Origin: Meghimatium bilineatum | Lineage: Eukaryota; Mollusca; Gastropoda; Stylommatophora; Philomycidae | Length of the DNA stretch: 64,000 bases | Reading direction: 5' to 3' | Assembly (NCBI GenBank): GCA_034231615.1 | Contig: CM067298.1 | Coordinates: 3,601,834 to 3,665,833 of the forward strand | Shown: positions 1 to 64,000 of the stretch, piece after piece | Layout: each line of letters opens with the position of its first letter | Numbering within the stretch: position 1 is the stretch's first letter | The notes under the pieces: generated by a model | Seen by the model: the letters and a program-made list of their open reading frames with translations, nothing else | Database searches by the model: none | Told to the model about the DNA's origin: nothing | Program-made: the position numbers and the translations under genes

Positions 1-132
1 GATGTGAGAAATGACGCAGAAATGAGAGCTTAATTGAAAATAATACCGCAAGCTTATGTCAGTTTAGTCTGCGGAAATTATAGGCTTTGTGTTTGTGTCA
101 ACTGGGGCTTTGTTAACTGGAGCTGTGTTACT

Positions 133-146
133 GGGGGGGGGGGGGG
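133..146. repeat. Poly-G run (14 bp)
   Basis: Uninterrupted run of 14 G. It is one of more than ten G or C runs of at least 10 bp in the window. Confidence 0.9.
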
Positions 147-244
147 TGTCGACTGAAGACATTAGTTTGTATATGGCATTGTTTCTGAAAGGAGGGGGTG
201 GCTAGAGTAAGGATTTTTAAGGGATTTGGAAATGGGAGCTCATT

Positions 245-350
245 CATCAATTCATACTAATACACAAGTATGCCCTATATATCAGGTGACATAATTTCAT
301 CAATTCATACTAATACACAAGTATGCCCTATATATCAGGTGACATAATTT
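245..350. repeat. 53-bp direct duplication
   Basis: Two consecutive, essentially identical copies of a 53-bp segment starting CATCAATTCATACTAATACA. No coding potential is seen around them. Confidence 0.9.
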
Positions 351-519
351 TTCCAGAACGTTGTCTTCTCTATGGAACTTGTACACTTCTCACGATTCTC
401 TGGGAGAGTTGACCTGCCACAACCAGGGACATGTATAAACAATCTCAGATATCTCTTATCCAGTATTGTCTTACCCCTGCTACCAACCGCCATACCTATT
501 ATTATCATGTGTCCATGAT

Positions 520-895
520 GTTATGTTATGAACATAAAATGGATCAATTTCGTCACAAATAATGATTTAAGAAATAAAACACACCAAGAATATGTTTCAG
601 ACATCATAAGAAAACGCAGATGGAAATACCTGGGTCACGTTTTAAGATTAGATGAAAACAGAATAAACCAACAAGCCGTTATATGGACACCTGAAGGTAA
701 AAGAAAACGAGGAAGACCTAAAGCAACCCTTAAAAAAGCACCATATTTAAGGGGGAAATAACAGGCTGCAAGACAATAACTAAAACTGCAGGAAGCGGAT
801 CGCAACACATGGAGAATCAAAATCTCTGCCTTATATATCGCCTGCGGCACGAAAGGAACAAACAAACTAACTGTTATGTCTCTTTATATAACCAA
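520..895 (+). mobile_element. LINE-D 3' end (RT C-terminal remnant)
   Basis: One reading frame gives RRWKYLGHVLRLDENR, then EGKRKRGRPK, then two in-frame stops (759 and 777), and finally ACGTKGTN. This order is the usual C-terminal tail of RTE-like LINE reverse transcriptases. RT motifs are absent, so this is a 5'-truncated dead copy. Two relatives lie at 47995-48365 and 53165-53560 on the minus strand. All three end at the same place and run into an AACT-rich tail (here AAACAAACTAACTG), which marks the real 3' terminus of the family. Confidence 0.8.
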
Positions 896-1094
896 AACAC
901 ATCTCAGCTTTCTGATTATATTGTTGTTTAAGAGCCAACCATTCTTCAACTTTTAATGTTTTTATAACCACTTCCTGATTTGTCTTTTTCTCTGTCCATG
1001 ATATTCTCAAAATTCTTCTGTAGCATCTCATTTAGAAGGTCACTATTCGCTTGACCACTGTTTTATTAAATGTTCACATTCACAAGCATACACC

Positions 1095-1255
1095 CCCATC
1101 GAGGCCAGAATCTTGAAGTGGTGATGGGGCTTAGTTCAGCCATCAGAGGCTGGAAACTAAGACTGGTCGGGCACTCCCACTCGAGCAGGACCATAGTCCG
1201 GCCCAAGTAAGCAGAGTGCTGAAGACGGAGGCAACCAGCCAAAAGGCGCACAGAT
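1095..1255 (+). repeat. Rep-F dispersed repeat, copy 1
   Basis: A segment containing GGCTGGAAACTAAGACTGGT and CTGAAGACGGAGGCAACCAG. The same sequence occurs in inverse orientation at 20575-20715. Function unknown; it may be an untranslated part of a LINE, since LINE-C sequence follows at 1400. Confidence 0.75.
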
Positions 1256-1399
1256 AATCAGGTTGCCACGCATAAAACACAATGGAAACATGTCTGCATC
1301 TAATAAACGTTATGGTGCCTGCCCTGTGGCGGACGTTCAGGCAGGGACGGTGCCGGGCCCTATACCTCGAAAGGGCCCAACCTCAGTTACTGGAAGTCC

Positions 1400-1565
1400 T
1401 TCTCAATTGCCCCGAGGAGCCAGGAGGCAAGGGAATAGACAACACTGGAATCAAAGCTCTATGGGACACTGTATGAACTACAAAAGACAGTGAGTTTTAT
1501 TAAGGAGACAGAATTGCAGATATAGACATGTTTCAAGTGAACGAAAGAAGAAGAAGAAGAAAACA
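1400..1565 (+). mobile_element. LINE-C 3' terminus
   Basis: Closely resembles the end of the LINE-C copy at 22050-22325: the stretch corresponding to KLYGPLYELQ, FIQEAELQI and the terminal CAAGTGAACGAAAGAAGAAG is shared. It ends in a GAA-rich tail, (GAA)n then AAC. Only the last ~150 bp of the element is present. The segment at 1494-1530 is the closest intact match to the unit of the array that begins 470 bp downstream. Confidence 0.75.
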
Positions 1566-2004: not shown

Positions 2005-3622
2005 CTTTTTTCTTCTTTTGTTCACTAATAATGTCTAAATCTGCAGTGTTGATTCTTGTATAAATTGTTGACTAATAATGTCTATATCTGCAGTGTTGTT
2101 TCTTGTATAAATTGTTGCATAGAAATGTCTATATCTGCAGTTTGTTTCTGGTATAAATTGTTGACTAATAATGTCTATATCTGCAGTGTTGTTTCTTGTA
2201 TAAATTGTTGCATAGAAATGTCTATATCTGCAGTGTTGTTTCTTGTATAAATTGTTGCATAGAAATGTCTATATCTGAAGTGCTGTTTCTTGTATAAATT
2301 GTTGACTAATAATGTCTATATCTGCAGTGTTGTTTCTTGTATAAATTGTTGCATAGAAATGTCTATATCTGCAGTTTGTTTCTGGTATAAATTGTTGACT
2401 AATAATGTCTATATCTGCAGTGTTGTTTCTTGTATAAATTGTTGCATAGAAATGTCTATATCTGCAGTGTTGTTTTTTTTGTATAAATTGTTGCATAGAA
2501 ATGTCTATATCTGCAGTGTTGTTTCTTGTATAAATTGTTGCATAGAAATGTCTATATCTGCAGTGTTGTTTCTGGTATAAATTGTTGACTAATAATGTCT
2601 ATATCTGCAGTGTTGTTTCTTGTATAAATTGTTGCATAGAAATGTCTATATCTGCAGTGTTGTTTCTGGTATAAATTGTTGACTAATAATGTCTATATCT
2701 GCAGTGTTGTTTCTTGTATAAATTGTTGCATAGAAATGTCTATATCTGCAGTGTTGTTTCTTGTATAAATTGTTGCATAGAAATGTCTATATCTGCAGTG
2801 CTGTTTCTTGTATAAATTGTTGACTAATAATGTCTATATCTGCAGTGTTGTTTCTTGTATAAATTGTTGCATAGAAATGTCTATATCTGAAGTGCTGTTT
2901 CTTGTATAAATTGTTGACTAATAATGTCTATATCTGAAGTGCTGTTTCTTGTATAAATTGTTGCATAGAAATGTCTATATCTGCAGTGTTGTTTCTTGTA
3001 TAAATTGTTGACTAATAATGTCTATATCTGCAGTGTTGTTTCTTGTATAAATTGTTGCATAGAAATGTCTATATCTGCAGTGTTGTTTCTTGTATAACTT
3101 GTTGCATAGAAATGTCTATATCTGCAGTGTTGTTTCTTGTATAAATTGTTGCATAGAAATGTCTATATCTGCAGTGTTGTTTCTTGTATAAATTGTTGCA
3201 TAGAAATGTCTATATCTGCAGTGTTGTTTCTTGTATAAATTGTTGACTAATAATGTCTATATCTGCAGTGTTGTTTCTTGTAATAAATTGTTGCATAGAA
3301 ATGTCTATATCTGCAGTGTTGTTTCTTGTATAAATTGTTGACTAATAATGTCTATATCTGCAGTGTTGTTTCTTGTATAAATTGTTGACTAATAATGTCT
3401 ATATCTGCAGTGTTGTTTCTTGTATAAATTGTTGCATAGAAATGTCTATATCTGCAGTGTTGTTTCTTGTATAAATTGTTGACTAATAATGTCTATATCT
3501 GCAGTGTTGTTTCTTGTAATAAATTGTTGACTAATAATGTCTATGTCTGCAGTGTTGTTTCTTGTATAAATTGTTGCATAGAAATGTCTATATCTGCAGT
3601 GTTGTTTCATGTATAAATTGTT
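2005..3622 (-). repeat. 46-47 bp minisatellite seeded on a LINE-C 3' end
   Basis: About 34 units in two alternating forms that differ at their start (TTGACTAATAATG or TTGCATAGAAATG), both continuing TCTATATCTGCAGTG. Read on the minus strand, the left edge (2005-2031) is a LINE-C terminus: AGTGAACAAAAGAAGAA matches AGTGAACGAAAGAAGAA at 16 of 17 positions. The next 34 bases of the unit match the LINE-C copy at 1494-1530 at 27 of 34 positions (hand alignment). The minus-strand unit still reads FIQETALQI, against FIQEAELQI in LINE-C. The array is therefore the amplified last ~45 bp of a LINE. Open frames within it are not genes. Confidence 0.85.
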
Positions 3623-3695
3623 GAATGAAAATGCGTTGTGTCACCGCTTTATGTGCGGCAATGGCCGGACATATCCGTCTTTGGCAGAACAAATT
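3617..3695 (+). repeat. Rep-A fragment
   Basis: Matches the Rep-A core (ATGCGTTGTGTCACCG, then ATGGCCGGACATATCCGTCT). It starts exactly where the 47-bp array ends. Confidence 0.7.
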
Positions 3696-4389: not shown

Positions 4390-5600
4390 TTGATCTATCA
4401 ATCAAGAGTCATGCCGAGTGGGGTAGGCGAGCATGCTTCTCCACAACTCTCAGTCTCGTGTGTTGTTAATAAGTTCATTTCGTGACTTCTTTTTGTGACA
4501 ACCCATCGAGATATTTCTGTCTCTTCTCCCCTTCATCTTTCCGATGGTTACTAAATGTTCAAGTTTTACTTTTCTCATTACATGCCCTAAAAATCTTGAT
4601 TGCTTCTAATTTTTGCTATAATTAATTTGTCGTTTTACTCCTGCATCTTTGAGAACTTCTATATTAGTTTTATTAGCTGTCCATGGAATTTTCATCATTT
4701 TTCTTAAAAAACCACATATCAGTTGTATCCCGCTTATCTTGGGCACTTTTACTTACTGTCCATATTTCGCTTCCATAAAGACGGATTAGCTAAATATAAC
4801 ATCTTAACACTCAAACTCGCGTATGCATTGATATAACTGCATTGATATAACTTCATTGATATAACTGCATTGCATAGAATGTTTCTCATTTTTTTTAATG
4901 TAGATGTGGCATGTGCTATCCTGTTCTTGATCTCATTGGAGAAATTACCATGTGATGTTAAAATGGTGCCAAGATACTTAACTTTATCCGCTTGATTTAG
5001 TTTTGTATCATTGATAGTAATACTGCATTTTGGTGGTGTGTATTGTTTTTGAAACAACCATTATGTCTGTTTTATTCTACTACCACTTCACGTTCTTGTA
5101 CTACTATGTCTACCAGGGCTTGAAGTTCTTGTTCGCTCCCTTCAATAATAACTGTATCGCCAGCATATCTCAGATTATTCAGATTGTAACCTCCAACTGC
5201 TATTACTGGCATGCTTTCTATGTTTTGCACAATATCCTATGTGTACAGGAAAAAAATATCTGGTGATATTACACATCCATGTCTGACGCCCATCTCTATC
5301 TTTTGGAACTCTCTTACATTACTATCAACCAACATCGGAGTTGTCTGTTTCCAATACATATTTCTTACTATCTTTAGATCTTTCCCATCAACATTGCGCT
5401 TTTTCTAACATTTGTTGTATCATTCCTGAATTCTTCATCTTGTCAAATGCTTTACTATAATCTATGCAGCACAACTACAGCTAGTTGTGTACTTCTATTG
5501 CCCACTCCATCAATGTTTCTACTATATATATATAGGGCATTTATTGTTCCTTTTCCTTCCACAAATATTGATAACGGTAACTGACTGCTACGAGGAATGT
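4390..5600 (-). mobile_element. Decayed RTE-like LINE reverse transcriptase
   Basis: Read on the minus strand with frameshifts and stops: a motif A region (IDYSKAFDKMKNSGM), a motif C region reading LRYAGDTVIIEGSEQEL, thumb sequence (KVKYLGTILTSHGNFSNEIK), then LYGSEIWTVSKSAQDKRD and a tail ending in LWRSMLAYPTRH. The catalytic YADD box reads YAGD, so one catalytic aspartate is lost. A 14-bp segment (GCATTGATATAACT) is tandemly repeated about three times inside the coding region near 4825-4870. It is a fossil; the endonuclease is missing. Confidence 0.8.
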
Positions 5601-5919: not shown

Positions 5920-5984
5920 TTATGTAATGGGGGAATGAGATCTCTACACAGCTTGATTTCATACCCAGAATACTGCAACTCTCA
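5920..5984 (+). repeat. Rep-G copy 1, left part
   Basis: AATGAGATCTCTACACAGCT and surrounding bases match 8863-8920. The array that follows interrupts this Rep-G copy; its right part (TTTGACAAGTCTC) resumes at 8110. Confidence 0.7.
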
Positions 5985-8106
5985 GCGGTGTGCACCAACT
6001 CTTCTCAGCAGTGTGCAATAGAAGCTTCAACTCTCAGCGGTGTACACCAACTCTCAGCGCTGTACACCAACTCTTCTCAGCAGTGTGCAATAGAAGCTTC
6101 AACTCTCAGCGGTGTGCACCAACTCTCAGCGGTGTACACCAACTCTTCTCAGCAGTGTGCAATAGAAGCTTCAACTCTCAGCGGTGTGCACCAACTTTTC
6201 TCAGCGGTGTGCAATAGAAGCTTCAACTCTCAGCGGTGTGCACCAACTCTCAGCGGTGTACACCAACTTTTCTCAGCAGTGTACAATAGAAGCTTCAACT
6301 CTCAGCGGTGTACACCAACTTTTCTCAGCAGTGTGCAATAGAAGCTTCAACTCTCAGCGGTGTACACCAACTTTTCTCAGCAGTGTGCAATAGAAGCTTC
6401 AACTCTCAGCGGTGTACACCAACTCTCAGCGGTGTTCACCAACTCTCAGCGGTGTACACCAACTTTTCTCAGCGGTGTGCAATAGAAGCTTCAACTCTCA
6501 GCGGTGTGCACCAACTCTCAGCGGTGTACACCAACTTTTCTCAGCAGTGTGCAATAGAAGCTTCAACTCTCAGCGGTGTACACCAACTCTCAGCAGTGTG
6601 CAATAGAAGCTTCAACTCTCAGCAGTGTGCAATAGAAGCTTCAACTCTCAGCGGTGTGCAATAGAAGCTTCAACTCTCAGCGGTGTGCACCAACTCTCAG
6701 CGGTGTTCATCAACTCTCAGCGGTGTTCACCAACTCTCAGCGGTGTGCACCAACTCTTCTCAGCGGTGTGCAATAGAAGCTTCATCTCTCAGCGGTGTGC
6801 ACCAACTCTCAGCGGTGTTCACCAACTCTAAGCGGTGTGCACCAACTCTCAGCGGTGTGCACCAACTCTCAGCGGTGTTCACCAACTCTCAGCGGTGTGC
6901 ACCAACTCTCAGCGGTGTGCACCAACTCTCAGCGGTGTGCACCAACTCTCAGCGGTGTTCACCAACTCTCAGCGGTGTTCACCAACTCTCAGCGGTGTTC
7001 ACCAACTCTAAGCGGTGTGCACCAACTCTCAGCGGTGTGCACCAACTCTCAGCGGTGTGCACCAACTCTTCTCAGCGGTGTGCACCAACTCTCAGCGGTG
7101 TGCACCAACTCTTCTCAGCGGTGTGCACCAACTCTCAGCGGTGTGCACCAACTCTAAGCGGTGTGCACCAACTCTCAGCGGTGTGCACCAACTCTCAGCG
7201 GTGTGCACCAACTCTCAGCGGTGTGCACCAACTCGCAGCGGTGTGCACCAACTCTAAGCGGTGTGCACCAACTCTCAGCGGTGTGCACCAACTCTAAGCG
7301 GTGTGCACCAACTCTAAGCGGTGTGCACCAACTCTAAGCGGTGTGCACCAACTCTTCTCAGCGGTGTTCACCAACTCTAAGCGGTGTGCACCAACTCTCA
7401 GCGGTGTGCACCAACTCTAAGCGGTGTGCACCAACTCTCAGCGGTGTGCACCAACTCTCAGCGGTGTGCACCAACTCTTCTCAGCGGTGTGCACCAACTC
7501 TCAGCGGTGTGCACCAACTCTTCTCAGCGGTGTGCACCAACTCTCAGCGGTGTGCACCAACTCTTCTCAGCGGTGTGCACCAACTCTCAGCGGTGTGCAC
7601 CAACTCTTCTCAGCGGTGTGCAATAGAAGCTTCAACTCTCAGCGGTGTGCACCAACTCTCAGCGGTGTTCACCAACTCTAAGCGGTGTGCACCAACTCTC
7701 AGCGGTGTGCACCAACTCTCAGCGGTGTGCACCAACTCTTCTCAGCGGTGTGCACCAACTCTTCTCAGCGGTGTGCAATAGAAACTTCAACTCTCAGCGG
7801 TGTGCACCAACTCTCAGCGGTGTTCACCAACTCTCAGCGGTGTGCACCAACTCTCAGCGGTGTGCACCAACTCTCAGCGGTGTGCACCAACTCTCAGCGG
7901 TGTGCAACAGAATACTTCAACTCTCAGCGGTGTACACCAACTCTCAGCGGTGTGCAACAGAATACTTCAACTCTCAGCGGTGTGCACCAACTCTCAGCGG
8001 TGTGCAACAGAATACTTCAACTCTCAGCGGTGTGCACCAACTCTCAGCGGTGTGCACCAACTCTCAGGGGTGTGCAACAGAATCTTCAACTCTCAGCGGT
8101 GTGCAC
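5985..8106. repeat. 20-bp minisatellite inside Rep-G
   Basis: About 2.1 kb built on CAACTCTCAGCGGTGTGCAC. Longer variants insert TTCTCAGCAGTGTGCAATAG plus AAGCTT. The left half is rich in the AATAGAAGCTT form, the middle is nearly pure 20-bp units, and the right end uses a CAACAGAATACTT variant. Open frames (up to about 200 codons) arise because stops are absent from the unit; they are not genes. Confidence 0.95.
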
Positions 8107-8134: not shown

Positions 8135-8245
8135 ATTTCACAGCCATCCGTCTTCAGCGTGGGACGTCTCAGTTCAGAAAGCAAAGAATAGGGTTACTGT
8201 TTTCTTTCCATGCATGTCGAAGGAGACGACTAAGGAATGTTGGGA
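8135..8245 (+). repeat. Rep-B fragment
   Basis: Contains AAGCAAAGAATAGGGTTACT and CCATGCATGTCGAAGGAGAC, matching the 5' part of Rep-B copies at 10195 and 48425. Confidence 0.6.
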
Positions 8246-8735
8246 GATAGGCTGACACCATGTCACGTGTGAAAACATCATCATTGTGATATCACTTGTC
8301 TTCATTTCTTACTAGTCTCCTCTACCAAATAATCGCCATGGGAGATCTTAATAGTCTCCTCTACCAAATAATCGCCTTGGGAGATCTTACTAGTCTCCTC
8401 TACCAAATAATCGCCATGGGAGATCTTACTAGTCTCCTCTACCAAATAATCGCCACGGATGACGAAGAGACACAGACCAGCGGACATTGCACCTTTGTCC
8501 TTTTGTAGCAGACTTCTAGATGATGGGAAATGTCAGATCACTGCGGATGTGTCAGCAAATGTGACAGAAACGTGATAGAATAGTTGGCACCGAGGTATGT
8601 GTACTGTGCTCTGTGTATGACGTGGTAATCCTGATATACTAGCACATTAAAATGCTTCCCTTCGGTGACTAAACTGCATCCATACACCTCCCTTGCACAA
8701 CATTATTTTTGAGACAACCTTACAAGAGTCAGGGC
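8246..8735 (+). repeat. Rep-H copy 1
   Basis: Homologous along its length to 52536-52945: shared GGATGACGAAGAGA, CATTGCACCTTTGTC, a TAATCCTGA(T/C)ATACT block, and GACTAAACTGCATCCATA against GACTAAACATGCATCCATA. This copy has its CTCTACCAAATAATCGCC segment amplified fourfold, while its TTTGAGACAACCT segment is single. Copy 2 shows the opposite. No coding capacity is recognised, so the element class is unknown. Confidence 0.8.
8309..8457. repeat. 39-bp tandem repeat within Rep-H copy 1
   Basis: About 3.7 units containing CTCCTCTACCAAATAATCGC and CATGGGAGATCTTA. The corresponding segment is single in the other Rep-H copy (52580-52630). Confidence 0.9.
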
Positions 8736-8862
8736 TTTACCTCAGATAAATAACTGAAAAGAACATGTGCTTATGTTTAATAAATAAATGACAGGCTGTC
8801 AAGTGCTACCTGTTCACAGTTAGATGGGTTATTTCATCATTGTCATCATTATCCTCTTGTGA

Positions 8863-8955
8863 AATGGGGGAACGAGATCTCTGCACAGCTTTATTGCATA
8901 GTCAGAAACTCTCAGTGTGCGATGTGTGTGATGTTTTGACATGTCTCTTTAAAGT
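8863..8955 (+). repeat. Rep-G copy 2, unexpanded
   Basis: GGGGGAACGAGATCTCTGCA, then AACTCTCAGTGTGCG, then TTTTGACATGTCTC: the same left and right flanks as the 6.0-8.1 kb array, but with only one or two copies of the CTCTCAG...GTGTG segment. It represents the pre-expansion arrangement. Confidence 0.75.
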
Positions 8956-9942: not shown

Positions 9943-10153
9943 AACAAAAAATATTTCAATGCTGACCAAGTCTAGGAAGTCGGTATATTAAACTACTATA
10001 TGAAATTAACAACAAAATATTTCAATGCTGACCAAGTCTAGGAAGTCGGTATATTAAACTACTATATGAAATTAACAACAAAATATTTCAATGCTGACCA
10101 AGTCTAGGAAGTCGGTATATTAAACTACTATATGAAATTAACAACAAAATATT
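9943..10153. repeat. 66-bp tandem repeat (about 3 units)
   Basis: Three nearly identical units containing GCTGACCAAGTCTAGGAAGT and ACTACTATATGAAATTAACA. Confidence 0.9.
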
Positions 10154-13635: not shown

Positions 13636-13800
13636 CTCAGCTGCCTAGCCAGTAGTTGACCAGAAGTAACCTGACCAGTGTCGCCTACCCCATAGCAATG
13701 GTGCCATTCCTCTGCCATCACAAAATATGAGTCCTGGTATTCCTTGTGGCTGGCTGAACCACTGGAGTAATTTTTTTTCACACCACAAATAATGAGTGGA
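13630..13800 (-). repeat. Rep-K copy 1, unexpanded
   Basis: In inverse orientation it reads GTGGTTCAGCCAGCCAC, then CACTGGTCAGGTTACTTCTG, then GGTCAACTACTGGCTAGGCA. The same order flanks and seeds the 28-bp array at 25428-25735, but here the CACTGGTCAGG segment occurs once. Confidence 0.65.
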
Positions 13801-17429: not shown

Positions 17430-18050
17430 TCATTGGTACCATGCCTTCCGACGTAGGAGATCATGTCTCTCCACAGTCATCTGTTTGTTATACATTTAAA
17501 TATAGTTTCTGATGATTCTGCATCATGCCAGACTTTCAAGCCATCCAACATTTTCTCAGGTTGTCTTCCTCTGTCTCTCTTACCCTCGATCTTTTCAGTT
17601 GTTACGATGTTCTCCAGCCCACCTCTTCTCACGACATGACCCAGGAACAGATTGTCGTCTTCTAATACAGTTAATAAGTTCTCTTTTTGAGTTGACCAGT
17701 TGTAGAATTATAGCATTACTCTTTTTATCTGCCCATGATATTTTCAACCTTTTTCTATAAAACTACATCCCTGTGGCCTCCAGATATTTTCTTGCAATGT
17801 TGTCGATTGTCCATGCTTCACTACCATATAACAGTATAGGCTCTATGTAACATTTTAGTATGTTCTTTCTTACTTCTATTGATAATTAATTATTATACAA
17901 GATGTTCCTCATCTTCTGGAATGCTGCTTTTGCCTGTGCTGTTCGACTTTTTATCTCAGTGACACATCTACCATCTGAAGTAATAATTGTTCCCAAATAT
18001 TTCAATTGAAGGTTATCTATGGATTATAATATGTTTACCTAATATTTCAT
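17430..18050 (-). mobile_element. RTE-like LINE RT thumb and C-terminus
   Basis: Minus strand: KYLGTIITSDGRCVTEIKSR, FQKMRNILYNN, CYIEPILLYGSEAWTIDN, ARKYLEATGM, a region with frameshifts, and an end resembling LWRDMI.YVGRHGT. RT motifs A-C are absent (5' truncation). Same clade as the fragment at 18430-18915. Confidence 0.75.
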
Positions 18051-18395: not shown

Positions 18396-18429
18396 CTTTT
18401 TACAAATTTAAATACATGCATGAAAAATG

Positions 18430-18915
18430 AAAGATATCATATGCAATAAGTCCATATCGATGGATACTAGAAAACGTGTCCTCAAATGCTACATTGAACC
18501 AGTGCTACTCTATGGAAGTGAAGCATGGACAACAAATACAACATCACAAAAATAATTTAAGGCAGCGGAAATGTGGTATATTCGAAGAATTTTACGCATT
18601 CCTTGGACAGCAAAGATTACTAATGAAGAATGTCTTAGAAGGATGGATGTGAAAAGATGCATTATTGATAATATAAGAAAAAGACAGTCACTATTTATTG
18701 TGCACATAATGAGAAGAGGAGGCATTGAGAATATAGTGACAACAGGAAAGATATACGGGAAAAGATCAAGGGGAAGACCTAGAGAAAAGATATTAGACAA
18801 TTTCAATAAATGGCTGTGACTGACGACACCAACAAGATGATGACACATATGAGAGATCGATGTGCATGGAGAGATGTGAACGCCATTCGGCACGGCACTT
18901 GATGATGATATACAA
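18430..18915 (+). mobile_element. RTE-like LINE RT C-terminal fragment
   Basis: Plus strand: RKRVLKCYIEPVLLYGSEAW, stop, AAEMWYIRRILRIPWTAK, TNEECLRRMD, SLFIVHIMRRGGIENIVTTG, GKRSRGRPREKILDNFNKWL, stop, then RCAWRDV and the terminal RHGT-like sequence followed by GATGATGATAT. One stop interrupts after TSQK; otherwise the tail is well preserved. 5'-truncated, dead. Confidence 0.8.
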
Positions 18916-25364: not shown

Positions 25365-25790
25365 CACACAAAAAAAACTCACGTGGTGCAGCCAGCCATC
25401 ACGAAATGGATACACGACCAAGGAAACTTACTCTCAGGCACTAGCCAGGCAAAGTGTTGCAAGTGGCACTAGTCAGGCAAAGTGTTGCAAGTGGCACTAC
25501 TCAGGCAAAGTGTTGGAAGTGGTACTAGTCAGGCAAAGTGTTGGAAGTGGCACTAGTCAGGCAAAGTGTTGGAAGTGGCACTAGTCAGGCAAAGTGTTGG
25601 AAGTGGCACTAGTCAGGCAAAGTGTTGGAAGTAGCACTAGTCAGGCAAAGTGTTGGAAGTGGCACTAGGCAGGCAAAGTGTTGGAAGTAGCACTAGTCAG
25701 GCAAAGTGTTGGAAGTAGCACTAGTCAGGCAATGTGTGGTCAACTACTGGCTAGACACCTGCTGCTCAACTACTGGTTAGACAGATGAAA
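25365..25790 (+). repeat. Rep-K copy 2, expanded
   Basis: GTGGTGCAGCCAGCCATC on the left and GGTCAACTACTGGCTAGACA on the right match the unexpanded copy at 13630-13800. Between them lies the 28-bp array. Confidence 0.65.
25428..25735. repeat. 28-bp tandem repeat in Rep-K
   Basis: About 11 units of ACTAGTCAGGCAAAGTGTTG plus (C/G)AAGTGGC. The seed equivalent at 13.6 kb is single. Confidence 0.95.
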
Positions 25791-26209: not shown

Positions 26210-26640
26210 AAACAATAGTGAAAACAGCTTGTGAAATGAGATGTTTGAGGAAAACTATAAATGTTACTAGATGAGACAGAGGGAGAAATGAAGATATCAG
26301 GAAAGAAATAAATACCATCTCAAATCAAGACTACATCGAGAGACAGCAAACCAGGAGGTTTGGCCATGAGAATAAAACCAACAGAAGCCTTTCTTGCACA
26401 CAACATTAGAAGATTGGACTACAAGGCACGAGAAAGACCAATAACTAGATGGTTAGAGACAAGAAAGACCAATAACTAGATGGTTAGAGACAAGAAAGAC
26501 CAATAACTAGATGGTTAGAGACAATCAAAGAGAGACACTAGCTGACTATGGATATTGCAACCTAAATGGTCAAAGACAGACGACTCCAACTTCCCACCAC
26601 GATGCTTCACTGCACAAGTGGAAATGACAATAGTTACTAA
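26210..26640 (+). mobile_element. LINE RT C-terminal fragment with internal triplication
   Basis: Plus strand: EMRCLRKTINVTR, RGRNEDIRKEINTISNQDYI, ERQQTRRFGHENKTN, then RERPITRWLETRK repeated, then TIKERH. Aligns with the better copy at 63020-63390 (CLRKATGVTKFDRLRNEDIR). The AAAGACCAATAACTAGATGG segment (31-bp unit) is present three times in tandem at 26434-26525, which breaks the frame. Confidence 0.7.
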
Positions 26641-35800: not shown

Positions 35801-37440
35801 TATCTAGTGTACATCAAACAATGACAAGTATCTAGTGTACATAAAACCGAACAATGACAAGTATCTAGTGTACATACAACCCAACAATGACAAGTATCTA
35901 GTGTACATAAAACCCAACAATGACAAGTATCTAGTGTACATCAAACAATGACAAGTATCTAGTGTACATACAACCAAACAATGACAAGTATCTAGTGTAC
36001 ATACAACCCAACAATGACAAGTATCTAGTGTACATAAAACCCAACAATGACAAGTATCTAGTGTACATAAAACCCAACAATGACAAGTATCTAGTGTACA
36101 TCAAACAATGACAAGTATCTAGTGTACATACAACCAAACAATGACAAGTATCTAGTGTACATACAACCAAACAATGACAAGTATCTAGTGTACATACAAC
36201 CAAACAATGACAAGTATCTAGTGTACATACAACCAAACAATGACAAGTATCTAGTGTACATAAAACCCAACAAAGACAAGTATCTAGTGTACATACAACC
36301 AAACAATGACAAGTATCTAGTGTACATACAACCAAACAATGACAAGTATCTAGTGTACATAAAACCCAACAATGACAAGTATCTAGTGTACATACTACCC
36401 AACAATGACAAGTATCTAGTGTACATAAAACCGAACAATGACAAGTATCTAGTGTACATACAACCCAACAATGACAAGTATCTAGTGTACATAAAACCCA
36501 ACAATGACAAGTATCTAGTGTACATCAAACAATGACAAGTATCTAGTGTACATACAACCAAACAATGACAAGTATCTAGTGTACATAAAACCCAACAATG
36601 ACAAGTATCTAGTGTACATACAACCGAACAATGACAAGTATCTAGTGTACATAAAACCCAACAATGACAAGTATCTAGTGTACATAAAACCGAACAATGA
36701 CAAGTATCTAGTGTACATAAAACCGAACAATGACAAGTATCTAGTGTACATAAAACCCAACAATGACAAGTATCTAGTGTACATACAACCCAACAATGAC
36801 AAGTATCTAGTGTACATAAAACCCAACAATGACAAGTATCTAGTGTACATAAAACCCAACAATGACAAGTATCTAGTGTACATACAACCCAACAATGACA
36901 AGTATCTAGTGTACATACAACCAAACAATGACAAGTATCTAGTGTACATACAACCAAACAATGACAAGTATCTAGTGTACATAAAACCCAACAATGACAA
37001 GTATCTAGTGTACATACAACCGAACAATGACAAGTATCTAGTGTACATAAAACCCAACAATGACAAGTATCTAGTGTACATAAAACCGAACAATGACAAG
37101 TATCTAGTGTACATAAAACCGAACAATGACAAGTATCTAGTGTACATCAAACAATGACAAGTATTTAGTGTACATAAAACCGAACAATGACAAGTATCTA
37201 GTGTACATCAAACAATGACAAGTATCTAGTGTACATACAACCAAACAATGACAAGTATCTAGTGTACATACAACCCAACAATGACAAGTATCTAGTGTAC
37301 ATAAAACCGAACAATGACAAGTATCTAGTGTACATAAAACCCAACAATGACAAGTATCTAGTGTACATCAAACAATGACAAGTATCTAGTGTACATAAAA
37401 CCGAACAATGACAAGTATCTAGTGTACATAAAATCCAACA
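26836..37440. repeat. 10.6-kb satellite-like array, 33/28-bp units
   Basis: Roughly 330 units. A nearly invariant 25-bp core (ACAATGACAAGTATCTAGTG plus TACAT) is separated by an 8-bp linker (ACAACCCA, ACAACCAA, AAAACCGA, AAAACCCA) or a 3-bp linker (CAA or AAA), giving 33- or 28-bp units. A variant core with TCTCATGTAYAT clusters at 31455-32360, 33310-33790 and around 30.4 and 35.1 kb. A GACAAAGACAAG-type variant clusters at 27.8-28.1 kb. Eight consecutive AAA-linker units sit at about 35205-35425. Long frames (up to about 350 codons, YIKPNNDKYLM on plus, YMRYLSLFGF on minus) are runs of 33-bp units broken by each 28-bp unit; they are not genes. Confidence 0.97.
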
Positions 37441-37524
37441 AACTAGCTTCAATTCTAGAATAATCATAATTTATAAACACCAACCAACTGGTTGTACAAC
37501 AACATTACAAATAATTTTGACATT

Positions 37525-38604: not shown

Positions 38605-38775
38605 AATATTAGAGAATATACTGTTATAGTTAGGATTAGAGAATAAGATATTTGAGTTAGGGTTAAAGAATGAGCTATTAGGATTAGAGAATAATCTGTT
38701 ATGATTAGAGAATAAACTGTTATGATTAGGATTAGAGAATAAACTGTTATGGTTAGGATTAGATAAACAAATATC
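38605..38775. repeat. Irregular 20-30 bp repeat
   Basis: Seven or so copies of GGATTAGAGAATAAACTGTT-like units (TTAGAGAATAA core). Confidence 0.8.
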
Positions 38776-49290: not shown

Positions 49291-49743
49291 ATACAGTGAT
49301 GATGAAATAATCCCTTTAGCTGTGAGCGGGTAGACCTTGATAGTTCATGGCCTTTCAGACAAATGAACAGGTTCTCAGTTGAGTAACTGAAGTGACACCC
49401 GGACTTGTATAAGGCTTGTCGTTTCAAAGGTATGGTTGTGTTGGGGGGGGGGGGGGGGTGTTATTAATGCATGTTTGATCAACTCATCTTAAAATAGCTG
49501 ATGTATGGTGAACTCCCCATGGCAAAACGACTGGCTGGTGGACAGAAGAAATGTTTCAAGGACTCATAAAGTGTCTCTAAAGAACTTCAACATTAATACC
49601 ACATCCTGAGAGTCTGTCACTCAGAATCACCCAGTATGTCACAGCAACATCAGCACAAGTGCTTGGACTGCCAAGAAGCATAAAATCTCAGAGTCACTGA
49701 GAAAACGCGCTGCCTGAAGACAAAACAACAAATACACACATAC

Positions 49744-49846: not shown

Positions 49847-50052
49847 CTGAAACTGTTGTCATCATCACCTGCGATGTGCGGCTTAATTTAAATGCATTTG
49901 TAAATGTCTGGTGCACTTCTGTGCTGAAAAAACCCATGATCATCATGTCCAGCTGGAGCAGAGCATATACTTCTGGGCCCAACTTACACATTTTTTAACC
50001 CATCTGCCTGCACATCTAGCATGCCTCATCACCTACGAGTCTGCTATAAAAA

Positions 50053-50147
50053 GACACAGGTGTAATGTCTGCTCACCTGCATATCTTCATGCATGGGGAC
50101 ACAGGTATAATGTCTGCTCACCTGCATATCTTCATTATGCATGGGGA
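50053..50147. repeat. ~46-bp direct duplication
   Basis: Two copies of ATAATGTCTGCTCACCTGCA plus TATCTTCAT. Confidence 0.85.
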
Positions 50148-50149
50148 TT

Positions 50150-50904
50150 ATTTGGTAGAAGACAAATAATAAGAAATTGAAACAAGATGTCACAATGACT
50201 TTTTTCACAGGTGACAGTCCAACACCCCCCCCCCTTACTTTCCATAATCATCTTCTACGACATGCCTGGAAAGAAGATAGTCACCCAATACTTTGCACTC
50301 TGAGCTAACAGTTCAGGGTTATTTGTTAACTGTCGCCTTCCCGAAACATTCTTGCCCAAAAATTCCACCATCTGCAATCTTTGATGGATGCTTGTTGGTT
50401 GATATTCTTCTTCTGTAAGAAACTGAAATCACTGCTCGTTGGCCAAATTTGGACAGATTCATTATCACACCAGCCATATTGACAACTGCCTGCATAGGTC
50501 ACTAAGCATACGAAGAGAATGACAATTTGCAATAATTTGTATATCGATGTGTACTTATTACATCAGTGATGACGTCTTCATACTCCTCACATGCTGGTAC
50601 AGGTGACGAAACACGGTGCGGGTTTCATTTCAACACTCCTCGTATGCTTTAACTTGTCCTTATTCTTCTTCCTCGTTCCCCAGTTGAAGTCAGATGCTGA
50701 TTTAGATTTCATCAATGAACTGGACTGTGGTCACCAGCCCCAAGATAGGGCCCTAGAGCTGTTTCAGATGGCCAAAGTTTTCTTCTTGTGGTGTAGTACA
50801 GTTCTATAAAATATGTCCTTGTTCATTTTGTAGACTTGGTCTTAAACTTGGTATTGTATGAGAAAGAGAGGTAACCTCTACAGGCCTAGATAATAACAAC
50901 ATAC
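50150..50904. other. Intronic sequence, no exon established
   Basis: C11 run at 50225. A minus-strand segment at 50330-50500 is open in two frames after CCTATGCAG, but neither frame joins its neighbours in phase and no homology is recognised. Confidence 0.4.
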
Positions 50905-52535: not shown

Positions 52536-52945
52536 AGGATAGGTTGACGTGTCATCTGTGACAATAATCGTCACATCTTGTCTCAATTTCTTACTTCTGT
52601 CTTCTACCAAATGATCCCAATGGATGACGAAGAGATGATAAGCGCACATTGCACCTTTGTCTTTGCTAAAAATATTAGGAGATGGGTCTCCAAATTAGGA
52701 AATGTGGCAGACTCCTAGGTGATGGGGAATGCTAGATGTGGCATCACTGCAGATGGGTCAATAAATCTGACCGAAGAATTATGAGATTGTTGACCCAGAA
52801 GTGTGTGTTGTGCTTCTGATAGGATGTGATAATCCTGACATACTGAAGTGCCTCCATTTGGGGACTAAACATGCATCCATAAACCCCCTTACACAACCAT
52901 GTCTCTGAGACAACCTCATATAAGTTCGGGTGTCGATTCATGTAC
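52536..52945 (+). repeat. Rep-H copy 2
   Basis: Homologous to 8246-8735. The CTTCTACCAAATGATCCCAA segment is single here; the segment around GAGACAACCTCATATAAGTT is amplified (52893-53104). Confidence 0.8.
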
Positions 52946-53104
52946 ACAACCATGTCTCTGAGACAACCTCATATAAGTTCGGGTGTCGATTCATGTACAC
53001 AACCATGTCACTGAGACAACCTCATATAAGTTCGGGTGTCGATTCATGTACACAACCATGTCACTGAGACAACCTCATATAAGTTCGGGTGTCGATTCAT
53101 GTAC
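52893..53104. repeat. 53-bp tandem repeat within Rep-H copy 2 (4 units)
   Basis: Units start ACAACCATGTCTCTGAGACA; units begin at 52893, 52946, 52999 and 53052. Single in Rep-H copy 1 near 8698. Confidence 0.95.
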
Positions 53105-53164
53105 ACAACTGAGAAGAACCTCTGATTTTGTCAGAAAGGCTATGGGCTATCAAGGGATACCTTA

Positions 53165-56032: not shown

Positions 56033-56035
56033 AAT

Positions 56036-56066
<31 letters not shown>

Positions 56067-58215: not shown

Positions 58216-59050
58216 CAAAACCCAGGCAAATACATGTAATAACATTTTAGAAAAACCTCCAAAAAACATATTGTCACTTATACTCAGCAATAATCCCCGG
58301 GAAACTGCTACAAAAAAATGTGTTAAGATATTACAGCACACTGTCAAACTTGCAACCTCATGACCACTAGACAAATGGCGTGACTACTTTGCTACAGCAA
58401 AATGTTCTGTATTTCATGCAAATAAAAATAGAGAAATAAGAAGTATTGAAAGGTTGTTTTTATTTGAGAGAAGAGAATTTCTGCCTTCTATGTCACATGT
58501 CCATACCAGAATTTTGTTCATTCACTCTATTCTGTAATTCAGTGCAAGCTGCTACCCAGCTTCCTTTAATGCCATATGAAAAAGGTTCTTAATGTCCAGT
58601 ATCTATCTGCATTATGGTCAAGTGACTTTCCTTTCTTGTCTGACTCTTCTTCTTCTTCTGCATTCACTCTTTGACTACCAACATGAGAGTGTGTGATTTC
58701 CACTGGGATGTGTGTAGCACATGGCTCTGCTAATTTCACAGCAAAGCTGCATTATTTTGCGCCTTCCGGCCAAGCACATCAATTTTTGGCATGTTATCTG
58801 ATGCTCCAACACAGAAGTACACATCTCAAATGGCTGTGGTACCAGGCATAATTCCCACAGCAGACAGGCATCCTGATAGTTCAGAAAGTAATGGCAACAT
58901 AATTAATTTGAATACTGCCTACAGAATCACTAGTCAAAATATGTTTGACTAATCATAAACTCCTGAATAGGATATGCTACCAAATTTTACTGTTGCTCTT
59001 TCCTGGAAGTGTTTCTTCCAAGATGAGTCTTTTCCTTCATAATGTTACTA
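58216..59050. other. Intronic sequence, mostly unrecognised
   Basis: A diverged Rep-A-like stretch at 58655-58800 (TTCTTCTTCTGCATTCACTC, ATTTTGCGCCTTCCGGCC). No exon recognised. Confidence 0.45.
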
Positions 59051-59980: not shown

Positions 59981-60104
59981 TATGGCGATTAAGGTATATA
60001 AGGAATCCATGCAGTCGTATGAATGGTGTGGTCAAATGCAGGCCATCATCACTATAATCATGGACCATGTCTTGATGTCAGTCCGTTCACTGCATTATCT
60101 TCTT

Positions 60105-60375
60105 CTTCTGTCTTCTGCGTTCATTCTCAAACTCCTGCAGATTAGCAGGATGTAGTCCGGAGAACGGAATGCGTTGTGTAATGGTTTACAGCATTTCTGC
60201 GATATCTGCGCCTTTCGGCCTGAACATCTGACTTCAGCATGGCTTTGGGTCACTGATCCTATATGGGATGGGACAGCCAACTCCATACCATAACCTCCTG
60301 AGTCACCTTTAACGACATGCGTGGAAGGTAAAGAGTGTTGCTATTCTTTACTCCCCTTTCAGGCACCGACAACAC
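60105..60375 (-). repeat. Rep-B, full length, inverse orientation
   Basis: TTCTTCTTCTGTCTTCTGCG, GTAGTCCGGAGAACGGAATG, CTGACTTCAGCATGGCTTTG, CTATATGGGATGGGACAGCC, CCCTTTCAGGCACCGACAAC. Confidence 0.85.
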
Positions 60376-60572
60376 ACGGGTGGACTGCATTCTCTACACA
60401 GTTGCATCATTACATTACCCAGAGAATTTATCTTTACCCACGTCGACCTATTCATTGATTGAATGGTGATTGATTGAAAAGAAGGTGGATTGAAGGAGTT
60501 ACCAACATTCTGACACAGTACAGTATTACTGCATATCAAGTAGAGTTTAGCGTGCCCCTGAATTGTCATAGC

Positions 60573-60905
60573 TTTGGTACTATACAAGAATCAGTGGACA
60601 GGTTTCTACGGAACAAAAAGCTAACATAATTAAACAGAAAAAAATTCCAATGAAGACACATATTACGACAGATAACACTCTACACATTTAGTAATGAGAG
60701 CCCCCCCCATCAGTCGATACGAGCGCTACACACTGAGTGGGGGGGGGGGTGGTTGTCCAGTCTGTTGCACATAAATCGTTAGATCAGTATCTTTAGTCAT
60801 ATTTTTAAATCTCCGAGAGACGGAAGCTCATTGCAATAACATATGAATTTTAAAAGTCGGACTGCTGTCATGTGATTTGTCCACTGATTCTTGTATAGTA
60901 CCATA
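60573..60905. repeat. Inverted repeat, 31-bp arms
   Basis: AGCTTTGGTACTATACAAGA plus ATCAGTGGACA near 60571-60601 is the reverse complement, with one mismatch, of 60876-60906. Loop about 275 bp, with a C8 and a G11 run (60739-60749) inside. Confidence 0.8.
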
Positions 60906-61237
60906 GCTTCTTCCGAGTAATAATAACTCTCAACTGATAGTGCAAAGAGTGGTGCCCTATTGTGGTGGAGTCTGAGGTGCAGGCAATGATCACTGATAAT
61001 TCCAGGGAAGGAAACATGACTATATCACACATGGTTAGACATTATACATGTGTGCAGTGCTTGGGCCTTCATATCTCAGTATGTAGGCAAGACCATCAAA
61101 GTGGAGAGTGGTGCATTTGCTGTGACTACAAGCAGGATGATTGAAGATTATGGCAGTGATCCAAGGCATTGAACTTGAGGAGTACACATAGGGCAACCCA
61201 TGCCTGAATCCTCAGTGACTTGATGAGTATGAACAGA

Positions 61238-62112
61238 GAAATACAAATGGGATTGTGTTGGTGAATAGTGGCTTGAGGGGATTGTGTTGGTGAATAGTGG
61301 CTTGAGGGGATTGTGTTGGTGAACAGTGACTTGAGGGGATTGTGTTGGTGAATAGTGATTGAGGGGATTGTGTTGGTGAATAGTGGCTTGAGGGGATTGT
61401 GTTGGTGAATAGTGATTGAGGGGATTGTGTTGGTAAATAGTGGCTTGAGGGGATTGTGTTGGTGAATAGTGGCTTGAGGGGATTGTGTTGGTGAACAGTG
61501 ACTTGAGGGGATTGTGTTGGTGAATAGTGATTGAGGGGATTGTGTTGGTGAATAGTGGCTTGAAGGGATTGTGTTGGTGAATAGTGGCTTGAGGGGATTG
61601 TGTTGGTGAATAGTGATTGAGGGGATTGTGTTGGTGAATAGTGATTGAGGGGATTGTGTTGGTAAATAGTGGCTTGAGGGGATTGTGTTGGTAAATAGTG
61701 GCTTGAGGGGATTGTGTTGGTGAATAGTGGCTTGAGGGGATTGTGTTGGTGAATAGTGATTGAGGGGATTGTGTTGGTGAATAGTGATTGAGGGGATTGT
61801 GTTGGTAAATAGTGGCTTGAGGGGATTGTGTTGGTGAATAGTGGCTTGAGGGGATTGTGTTGGTGAACAGTGACTTGAGGGGATTGTGTTGGTGAATAGT
61901 GATTGAGGGGATTGTGTTGGTGAATAGTGATTGAGGGGATTGTGTTGGTGAATAGTGGCTTGAGGGGATTGTGTTCGTGAATAGTGGCTTGAGGGGATTG
62001 TGTTGGTGAATAGTGGCTTGAGGGGATTGTGTTGGTGAACAGTGACTTGAGGGGATTGTGTTGGTGAATAGTCGCTTGAGGGGATTGTGTTGGTGAATAG
62101 TGGCTTGAGATA
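61238..62112. repeat. 29/26-bp minisatellite within RNase H sequence
   Basis: About 31 units of GGGATTGTGTTGGTGAATAG plus TGGCTTGAG (29 bp), or GTGATTGAG-type 26-bp units. First and last units join the LINE frame (IQMG on the left, WLE on the right). Frames of over 300 codons on the minus strand are artefacts. Confidence 0.95.
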
Positions 62113-62334
62113 GTGCAGATGTCAAAGTTGTAAAATGTTGCATTCAATTTTATGCCTGGTCATGTGGGTGTTCATGGCAAAGTGAGAGCAGATTGGCTAG
62201 CTTTAGCTGCTAATGGATTGGGCTGACATTTTGAAACCCTTACAGGCAAAGGACAGACAAATGAAATTAATAATAATGATGATTCCTTTTCCATATCCAG
62301 AATAAGGAAACTTGTCTTCAAATGCAGTGTTGCA

Positions 62335-62372
62335 AGAAATGCAGTGTTGCAAGAAATGCAGTTTTGCAAGAA
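62335..62372. repeat. 17-bp triplication
   Basis: GCAAGAAATGCAGTGTT about 2.5 times, inside the same LINE fossil. Confidence 0.85.
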
Positions 62373-62435
62373 ATGAGTGATACTGTAGGCTTAGAAATGT
62401 TTGTCAACCAACAGAGATTGTCTGTCATTGTGTAA

Positions 62436-62582
62436 TGGTGGATACACTCAAGTGGAGTTAAGAACTTGTGTAATAGTGGATACACTCAAGTGGAGTTAAG
62501 AACTTGTGTAATAGTGGATACACTCAAGTGGAGTTAAGAACTTGTGTAATAGTGGATACACTCAAGTGGAGTTAAGAACACT
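62436..62582. repeat. 38-bp tandem repeat within LINE C-terminus
   Basis: About 3.8 units of AATAGTGGATACACTCAAGT plus GGAGTTAAGAACTTGTGT. The unit encodes VDTLKWS, part of the LINE C-terminal segment. Confidence 0.9.
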
Positions 62583-62640
62583 TTTAGACATGTCTGAAAT
62601 GCAATGAAAATGATCAGACAAATAACATGACGCACCTTAA

Positions 62641-63019
62641 TTTTAATGCTTTGTAGACCTAGAGGAAACCTCTAGGTTGCTACAGATATATCTCTAGAGC
62701 ACCATCCTCATCCTTCTTGACTCTACAAGCAATGACTATGACTTTCAATACTATGAGTTATAAGTGTCATTTAATAGAATCATACTAAATAGTCTATCTT
62801 AATCTTGTCAATGACAGATAGGCCTACACTTAATTTATTTAGGGTCCCAAGTGTCTATGAATCTTTAAAAAATACCCATTAATCATTAATAACAATTTCA
62901 ATATCGAGATGGAAATTAAAAGACAAATGATTTACAGTATTTTACAGTATATTCCTAACAATACTGTGTTACCAGCGCCAAACCTGGTCTCTCATCTTCA
63001 CACTACAGAAAGATAGTGA
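62641..63019. other. No feature recognised
   Basis: No gene or repeat recognised. Confidence 0.5.
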
Positions 63020-63390
63020 CATGAGATGAAGTGCTTGAGAAAGGCTACAGGCGTCACCAAATTTGACAGATTACGAAATGAAGACATCAGGGAAAGAATA
63101 GGCATAAAACCATGCACAGAATGAATAGAAAAGCAGCAGATTAAGTGGTTTGGCCACATTATGAGAATGAATCACAACATGTTACTGTTAGTTAAGTTAC
63201 TCATGAAGGCATAGAGGGCCTATCCAAATGAGATCAGGGTACAAAGCCAGGGAAGACCACAATGGATAGAAAACATCAGGGACATCTTGAACAAACACGG
63301 TCATACTAGTCATAGTACAGCCGAGGCGACACATCTGGCCTTGGAACACAAGCTCAAATCACCCTCATGCTGAGTTAAGTAAGGCACAGC
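63020..63390 (+). mobile_element. LINE RT C-terminal fragment
   Basis: Plus strand: CLRKATGVTKFDRLRNEDIR, ERIGIKPCTE, stop, EKQQIKWFGHIMRMNHN, then QSQGRPQWIENIRDILNKHG, TAEATHLALEHKLKS and stop. Two internal stops (TGA, TAG). Same family as 26210-26640, without the triplication. Confidence 0.8.
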
Positions 63391-64000
63391 AGATTAGATT
63401 AGACCTGGTAGCAAATGATGTGTGCTTTTGAGTGTTACTTTACTATATAGTGCGCCTTATAAAATTTAATTGGAGAACTACACTTTTCTTAGGCATTAGC
63501 ACTAATCGAAATATTTCCGCAAAAAGATATTTAGAGTAATGTCCCTTGATAAAAATGCCATGTGCCGACATTTTCATTTTTTCATGGACCACGTGTGTAC
63601 TATCCAATGGAATTGTCATTTAGTGACGCCACGCAGCTTTAGATCATATAAAAGTGAACTGTATACTATTTATCATCCATTTCTGCAGTGTATTAAGATT
63701 AGGTATGTTGGAGATACCTTATCTACAATTAACACCAAGCAATTAAACAAGACGAGGTAGGTGTTTTTTGTCTTTGCACACGTATATGTTTTAGTTTTGA
63801 TTAAAATTATATGTGAAACCATGTCTAACATATTCAGCAACCATTTCTCTCTTTATGTACCAAATTTTAACATTTCTAGAAGTACCTTGTAATTATTATT
63901 AAATTTTAAAAATGCTATGGTGATCGACCGACCACGCTACTAACTTTAGAGTTCGTTTTCGGCTGTTCAATGTTGCCACGCCGTTAATTATCGATATTCG
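63391..64000. other. No gene recognised
   Basis: A TATA-like CATATAAAAG lies at about 63646 and sequence near the right edge is richer in CG dinucleotides. Neither is enough to call a promoter. Confidence 0.35.

Follow-up and report, generated by a model that had tools for sequence, protein, structure and literature searches.

The window, by which we mean the whole 64-kb stretch of DNA analysed here, carries 31 tandem arrays that together occupy 22,949 bp, or 36% of its length, at a density of roughly one array per 2 kb. This set was obtained by merging overlapping rows among the 58 given by TRF; it includes one AG microsatellite, and the rows at 94-136, 12873-12912, 46723-46764 and 56034-56066 were excluded. 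All nine arrays named in the original prediction were present in the TRF output where they had been placed. The largest array of the set (Table 1) had no element match anywhere in the window in the collapsed-array search described below. In the array at 9089, units 5-8 are the same four-unit series as units 9-12, amounting to one exact four-unit block duplication.

Pfam analysis revealed RVT_1 in two ORFs of the window. The dispersed repeats Rep-G, Rep-H and Rep-K are defined only as repeats within the window, and the labels SINE-like and LINE-like reflect our own reading. Searches with two LINE proteins returned no relative in viral contigs, nor did a search of genome contigs with one of them, and viral contigs likewise yielded nothing for two element tails; an isolated 20-base match of one element tail in a Streptomyces contig was set aside. 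The LINE-like sequences give the impression of an animal, perhaps a mollusc. Neither an Rfam family at gathering score nor a tRNA was detected in the window.

Arrays and their unexpanded counterparts

Each array was collapsed to one unit and compared with the rest of the window, using eight Markov shuffles per array as score background. Repeat detection was thereby limited to repeats present twice within the window. An array was regarded as a firm two-sided case if another copy in the window carried the segment once, together with 15 bp or more of each flank. Firm two-sided counterparts were found for 4/31 arrays (4824-4872, 5976-8106, 8307-8455 and 52890-53109), and the other 27 had none in the window. 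The original prediction had placed at least seven arrays on mobile or dispersed elements. Of its nine named arrays, those at 4.83, 6.0-8.1, 8.3 and 52.9 kb have a two-sided unexpanded counterpart and that at 25.4 kb has two collinear flanks, whereas matches are partial at 2.0-3.6 and 26.43 kb, weak at 62.4 kb and no better than shuffled sequence at 61.2 kb.

Table 1. Tandem arrays and unexpanded copies in the window
Feature	Position	Strand	Details
53-bp unit x 2.0, identical units	243..350		one-sided dispersed-repeat match
47-bp unit x 34	2030..3630		two borders in different repeats
Array in dispersed, probably LINE, remnant	4824..4872		14-bp unit x 3.5; score 146 vs shuffle maximum 38
Unexpanded counterpart of 4674-4984	17726..18007	+	sequence match
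Second unexpanded counterpart of 4.8-kb array	18423..18611	-	sequence match
Array in Rep-G copy	5976..8106		20-bp based, about 92 units; score 90 vs shuffle maximum 32
Unexpanded Rep-G copy	8850..8947	+	74.5% over 98 bp; left flank 63 bp, right flank only 16 bp
Array in Rep-H copy 1	8307..8455		39-bp unit x 3.8; score 192 vs shuffle maximum 38
Rep-H copy 2, 39-bp segment unexpanded (single unit)	49987..50306	-	counterpart of 8307..8455
Rep-H copy 3, 39-bp segment unexpanded (single unit)	52577..52664	+	counterpart of 8307..8455
Array in Rep-H copy 3	52890..53109		53-bp unit x 4.2; score 184 vs shuffle maximum 36
Rep-H copy 1, 53-bp segment unexpanded, both flanks	8537..8838	+	counterpart of 52890..53109
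Further copy, 53-bp segment single	49329..49448	-	80% identical; mainly unit and right flank
66-bp unit x 3.2	9943..10153		start overlaps tail of SINE-like family A copy 9816-9952
Array in Rep-K	25437..25737		28-bp unit x 10.8; flank matches collinear
Unexpanded Rep-K copy	13638..13775	-	flanks match 13638-13680 (54) and 13740-13775 (40); highest of 8 shuffles 36
31-bp unit x 3.0, identical units	26431..26524		upstream flank matches another repeat copy
Largest array	26839..37441		33-bp unit and 28-bp variants, 333 units, 10.6 kb
Array	38608..38763		begins about 6 bp past end of SINE-like family B homology at 38602
28/29-bp unit x 30	61249..62109		without confirmed element
38-bp unit x 4.0	62428..62579		weak unexpanded counterpart 55705-55820; 46 vs 30 (retest), 46 vs 34 (search)

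The two Rep-H arrays had been predicted to lie in different parts of the same element, and this was borne out by reciprocal single-unit counterparts: two Rep-H copies have each expanded a different segment, and each segment is single in the other copy. The pair thus constitutes a clean natural experiment, in which each copy provides the unexpanded state against which the other can be read. At the 52.9-kb array, an 8-bp box, TACACAAC, was found at each end. The 4.8-kb array likewise carries a 7-bp box, TGCATTG, at each end, and the nearby stretch 4677-4806 aligns with 56394-56522, which belongs to an ORF with RVT_1 (score 52 vs 36); Pfam returned nothing in the ORF 4749-5060 at the array itself. 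A 20-mer of the Rep-G array occurs in 36 exact copies within the array and in none in the rest of the window.

Matches of the remaining arrays were less complete. The 2.0-3.6-kb array, predicted to derive from a LINE 3' end, has such a sequence at its left border only (an antisense LINE-like 3' tail, 50 vs 32), whereas its right border lies within a different repeat, a SINE-like family A fragment. The upstream (left) flank of the array at 26431 matches 62990-63360 with a score of 80 against a shuffle maximum of 38, and a marginal match to 47027-47110 (40 vs 36) begins within the unit. For the 61.2-kb array, which had been assigned to an RNase H LINE, the best match in the window scored 34, below the shuffle maximum of 36; a 30-aa right-flank segment at 61.2/62.4 kb, which to the eye resembles an RNase H motif, gave nothing in Pfam at E<=1. 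The array at 243-350 was considered as a two-sided element case and rejected, its left flank being without a match (score 24): the collapsed sequence 278-472 matches 19976-20121 on the minus strand (70% over 140 bp, score 80 vs 32) through the unit's final 18 bp and the right flank only. The AG microsatellite comes after a LINE-like 3' end.

Array borders and a proposed route to array formation

For the 20 of 31 arrays judged to have a fixed period, we determined the border residual, defined as array length minus whole units. It was 8 bp or less in 11/20 arrays, compared with 6.0 expected under random phase (P 0.011, for a cut-off set after seeing the data), and seven of those 11 (16/20 overall) had a residual of at least 4 bp, which was reached by 2.9% of 5,000 simulated blunt duplications. 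Five arrays (4824, 9943, 52890, 62320 and 9089) had residuals of 5-10 bp and another three had 4 bp, while three arrays had 0-1 bp, one had 2 bp and eight had at least 11 bp. At the first-unit borders, where the original prediction had suggested looking for microhomology, overlaps of 4-8 bp are more frequent than by chance. For the 9/20 arrays with residuals above 8 bp, the simple model needs indels or later end changes. The boxes at the array ends are only partly conserved in the unexpanded sister copies, so the overlap is visible in the expanded copy and not proved in the ancestor.

These are, with good probability, ordinary minisatellites formed in place by duplication between short direct repeats and then lengthened. 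Chance mutation would place a short direct repeat of about 4-8 bp on both sides of some 14-66 bp of sequence; the first duplication of that segment would come about by slipped-strand replication or microhomology-mediated break repair; and later slippage or unequal exchange, including multi-unit block duplication, could extend it to a longer array. Some such segments lie inside decayed LINE-like, SINE-like or other dispersed copies because these account for much of the DNA around them. We infer the polymerase or repair step, an overlap predating the duplication, and an array age below that of the insertions. Among the mechanisms originally put forward, the 4-8-bp border overlaps favour slippage, or the repair of breaks, at short direct repeats, whereas rolling-circle re-insertion has little in its favour. 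Pairs like that of Rep-H, collected genome-wide, would expose the first step through border homology, unit length and age after insertion.

A broader reading, tentative and somewhat unlikely in our estimate, is that in this organism or region new tandem duplications arise unusually often at 4-8-bp microhomology, turning any sequence, transposon or not, into a minisatellite. If true, the density of roughly one array in every 2 kb would reflect a peculiarity of replication or repair and not a transposon signature.

Random-point control, unit ages and unit relatedness

A preference of arrays for transposon copies, implied in the original prediction, was absent from the window control. Four of 31 arrays lay within a dispersed repeat detectable in both of their flanks, compared with 70/310 random points kept off array units. 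Under a looser rule the figures were 5/31 arrays and 27.8% of 400 random points, which were taken across the entire collapsed window with the kept array units left in; the probability of 5 or fewer arrays was 0.10. Any match within 180 bp (score 60 or more) was found for 12/31 arrays and 48.7% of points. Old copies reveal the ancestral state and show no sign of attracting arrays, and since arrays in old repeats do not exceed the expectation from repeat coverage, the data indicate ordinary minisatellite birth in a repeat-rich region.

It is accordingly improbable that transposon copies themselves drive the birth of arrays, for example by errors of retrotransposition during insertion or as recombination hotspots, which would lead to enrichment. 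Several arrays do touch element ends, namely those at 9943 (SINE-like tail), 38608 (family B end) and 2030 (LINE-like 3' tail) and the AG microsatellite (LINE-like 3' end), and arrays were reported to be more numerous in the younger elements of the human genome (Ahmed and Liang, PMC3389668). However, none of the three comparisons shows enrichment over elements taken whole, and the units of the seven arrays compared for age resemble one another much more closely than the element copies do. Mean pairwise unit identity was 1.00 for the arrays at 243 and 26431, 0.99 for 52890 and 62428, 0.97 for 8307, and 0.95 for 4824 and 25437, whereas matching element copies are 61-81% identical to each other; of these seven, only 4824, 8307 and 52890 have firm two-sided element support. 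Those duplications thus probably took place after insertion. In the 5976 array, internal divergence (79% matches in TRF) is about that of its element copies (74.5% identity). Homogenisation could give old arrays a young look. The control is a caution against taking transposons for the makers of the arrays found inside them.

The seeds had been described as sharing no sequence, which holds for most of the 30 units compared, but not for the arrays at 39873 and 40490, which share a core (pair score 34, against 26 for the second-best pair and shuffled maxima of 23-24). When the 30 units were searched singly against the collapsed window, with six simple shuffles per unit, the 40490 unit also matched 39833-39906 (68 vs 34), and the 41458 unit matched a diverged copy at 41876-41967, 130 bp beyond its array (68 vs 32); weaker matches elsewhere were found for the units at 243 (40 vs 32) and 61249 (32 vs 26). 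Clear matches outside homologous element copies were thus local, within 1 kb (39873/40490 and beside 41458). For none of the 30 units was the same unit found as arrays at unrelated sites in the window, and only the neighbours 39873 and 40490 are clearly related.

Very improbable, therefore, is the re-insertion of ready-made arrays, either by rolling-circle amplification of excised circles or by a Helitron-like carrier. Homogeneous arrays as long as 10.6 kb, the core common to neighbouring arrays and the stray unit matches would suit it, but four arrays occupy the same site in the element as the single segment of an unexpanded copy, with which they align in register on either side, and the clear unit matches are only local. 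The original preference for arbitrary short segments over one mobile satellite is upheld: separate births in place from unrelated segments are firm for four arrays. That flank matches reflect chance or shared low complexity, with arrays born in unique sequence, could be entertained for 61.2 kb, without a match above the shuffled maximum, and for the marginal 62.4 and 26.43 kb, but is scarcely credible overall and already refuted for the four two-sided arrays, which score 90-192 in the collapsed-array search against shuffled maxima of 36-38, with 0/500 simple shuffles reaching the observed score in the pairs retested (including 4824, 5976, 52890 and the right side of 25437; regions picked after the search and uncorrected for that choice).

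Relation to known minisatellites

The region is unusually repeat-rich and its only notable feature is the density of arrays; minisatellite birth there looks ordinary and already described. In human, 7,276 of 31,472 minisatellites (23%) are TE-derived by the authors' filters and make up about 0.32% of the genome; flanking direct repeats of 5-20 bp were reported for 300 of the 7,276, and a link to young elements was suggested (Ahmed and Liang 2012, PMC3389668). The human arrays are made from internal segments of single TE copies, mostly at one locus and by local expansion, and the arrays here with two-sided counterparts likewise expanded in place from segments of single dispersed copies. In contrast to the human set, arrays form 36% of the window, with an element origin established for only a few; border overlaps are frequent, and enrichment in dispersed repeats is lacking. 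Taking a segment that is single in other element copies as the mark of a TE-derived minisatellite, 4/31 arrays qualify by sequence comparison, with 25437 added by its collinear flanks.

Haber and Louis (1998), as cited in these sources, attributed the first duplication to slippage or unequal exchange between flanking direct repeats of 5-10 bp (PMC3389668, PMC6947457). Their model fits the 7-bp box at 4824 and the 8-bp box at 52890, whereas most of the 9/20 arrays with residuals above 8 bp would need indels or other steps. Arrays have also been described in mouse B1, mouse LTRs and human Alu (Bois 1998, Kelly 1994, Jurka and Gentles 2006, as summarised in PMC6947457). These resemble the present arrays in being seeded within SINE or LTR copies, but concern named single families, whereas several unrelated seeds occur here in one 64-kb stretch. 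In Patella, PcH-sat is a mainly pericentromeric satellite family with a 118-bp Nin-SINE segment (PMC11121367); it is likewise an invertebrate tandem repeat partly derived from a SINE, but is a satellite family, unlike the small separate arrays of the window. Border overlaps of 4-8 bp above chance, together with units more alike than the element copies, fit the described process of in-situ duplication between short direct repeats, followed by duplication of units and blocks.

Tandem arrays and dispersed repeats

Merging and trimming of 58 TRF rows yielded 31 tandem arrays, named here by their start coordinates, which together sum to 22,949 bp (35.9% of the window) and have units of 14-107 bp, except for one AG dinucleotide array. 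The largest array (26839-37441; 10.6 kb) was parsed into 333 units, among which lengths of 33 bp (255 units) and 28 bp (74 units) predominate, and an element match sought for it in the window was not found. Nearly all of our tests were confined to these 64 kb. An AG microsatellite (42504-42558) directly follows a LINE-like copy at its 3' end and looks like an outgrowth of that tail.

Self-comparison of the window revealed several dispersed families, and a Pfam reverse transcriptase domain was present in two ORFs (see table). Another ORF matched DUF6451 (E 1.1e-8). The 47-bp array is flanked on the minus strand by part of SINE-like family A (3623-3689) and a LINE-type 3' tail (2007-2045), an arrangement that could represent a chimeric retroelement copy. 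A 31-bp inverted repeat (97% identical, ~280 bp apart) resembles the termini of a small DNA transposon. The window also contains twelve tracts of G or of C, each 10-17 bases long, where base composition predicts ~0.03 runs of at least 9.

Coordinates of dispersed repeats and other features in the window
Feature	Coordinates	Basis or detail
LINE-like 3' coding end	528-873, 47980-48384, 53164-53561	self-comparison; labelled by eye
Second LINE-like 3' end	1439-1554, 13369-13626, 22028-22323, 42567-42872	self-comparison; labelled by eye
SINE-like family A	3623-3689, 9816-9952, 23614-23786, 24295-24449, 40219-40364, 49115-49285	self-comparison; labelled by eye
SINE-like family B	10201-10455, 10910-11181, 38411-38602, 48420-48693, 54520-54622, 57946-58229, 60103-60375	self-comparison; labelled by eye
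Rep-H	8171-8838; 49329-49448 with 49987-50306; 52550-53161	self-comparison
Reverse transcriptase ORFs	20827-22002, 56218-57783	both minus strand
DUF6451 ORF	23001-23453	minus strand
Inverted repeat	60570-60600 / 60878-60908	
G/C runs, first six	133-146, 12687-12697, 15541-15550, 17202-17218, 18386-18395, 19412-19424	
G/C runs, last six	22750-22760, 24019-24029, 48754-48768, 49443-49458, 50225-50234, 60739-60749	

Unexpanded counterparts and element context

Each array was collapsed to one unit (or to its first and last units) and the collapsed window was searched against itself, a two-sided counterpart being defined by a score well above shuffles and by 15 bp or more of flank at both ends. Such counterparts were found for four of the 31 arrays (4824-4872, 5976-8106, 8307-8455, and 52890-53109), the right flank of 5976-8106 being covered by 16 bp only. 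The dispersed repeat Rep-H provides the clearest ancestral-state case: its copy at 8.2-8.8 kb carries an expanded 39-bp segment, present as one unit at both 50.1 kb and 52.6 kb, and its copy at 52.6-53.2 kb carries a different expanded segment, of 53 bp, for which 8.7 kb and 49.4 kb each have one unit. In a fifth array, 25437-25737, both flanks were collinear with 13638-13775. The match of array 243-350 to 19976-20121 (minus strand) comprised only the last 18 bp of the unit and the right flank. Element matches of arrays 26431 and 62428 appear marginal (scores of 40 and 46 vs a shuffle maximum of 34), and array 61249 showed no match above shuffles in this search. The original prediction of minisatellites born inside element copies is partly confirmed.

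A transposon-specific reading of array birth was not supported by two random-point controls. In the first, the same search was applied to 400 points picked at random in the collapsed window: 27.8% fell within a matching repeat that extended at least 15 bp in both directions (score at least 60), compared to 5/31 collapse points (16.1%); any match within 180 bp at this score was found for 48.7% of the points and 12/31 arrays. Other thresholds (44 to 100) gave the same order, with arrays below random points, and the binomial chance was 0.10 for at most five arrays and 0.96 for at least five. In a stricter control, with points kept clear of arrays and at least 15 bp past the unit demanded on both sides, 70/310 points lay in a dispersed repeat compared to 4/31 arrays. 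Neither control revealed enrichment of arrays in dispersed repeats within the window, and both see only repeats present twice in 64 kb, which holds equally for arrays and points. The likely reading is that minisatellites arose here in the ordinary way, in a region rich in both repeats and arrays.

Borders, unit relatives and growth of the arrays

Border residuals (array length minus whole units) were measured in 20 fixed-period arrays. Residuals of at most 8 bp occurred in 11/20, compared to 6.0 expected at random phase (P 0.011, with a cut-off picked post hoc). Residuals of at least 4 bp were observed in 16/20 arrays overall, and in 7 of the 11 at or below 8 bp, vs 2.9% of 5,000 simulated blunt duplications. 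Short overlaps include an 8-bp box, TACACAAC, at each end of the 53-bp array and a 7-bp box, TGCATTG, at each end of the 14-bp array. The remaining nine residuals (10-44 bp) may have other causes; the apparent 32-bp residual of 8307-8455 can be read by eye as four whole units, three of them minus 8 bp.

Units were compared with each other and, for 30 units, with the collapsed window, where a match was reported if its score passed the shuffle maximum by more than 4. The clearest array-to-array relation in the window links the neighbours 39873-39980 (period 52 bp) and 40490-40636 (42 bp), which have a common 17-bp core and whose units scored 34 (next pair, 26; shuffled maxima, 23-24). The 40490 unit also matched 39833-39906 (68 vs 34 shuffled), the 107-bp array 41458-41746 has a diverged unit copy 130 bp downstream at 41876-41967 (68 vs 32), and the 243 and 61249 units matched 19600-19653 (40 vs 32) and 25024-25055 (32 vs 26), both on the minus strand. 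By these matches, the units have a few local or weak relatives in the window. Matches of the 8307 and 52890 units were their own Rep-H homologues, and neither search of the window revealed a unit recurring as a distant array.

In seven arrays with any grade of element support, firm and two-sided only for 4824, 8307, and 52890, mean pairwise unit identity was 0.95-1.00, while the element copies were 61-81% identical to their counterparts, suggesting that the duplications postdate insertion, unless homogenisation masks their age. Array 5976 is the exception, with unit divergence about equal to that of the element. In array 9089, units 5-8 and 9-12 are an identical four-variant series, which is a block duplication. 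Unit identity in array 25437 fell from 0.93 between neighbours to 0.75 nine units apart, partly due to a truncated, diverged last unit. The block series and this gradient point to local duplication.

Comparison with known minisatellites

Both array birth inside elements and its mechanism are already known from published work. The available text of Ahmed and Liang (PMC3389668) reports 7,276/31,472 (23%) TE-derived human minisatellites, describes their local expansion, and lists 300 with flanking direct repeats of 5-20 bp, mostly 7 bp. Likewise, the available portion of a review (PMC6947457) names examples from Alu, B1, and LTR elements, and sets out the Haber and Louis model of minisatellite origin. 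To these, the window adds a dense set of arrays and the reciprocal Rep-H pair.
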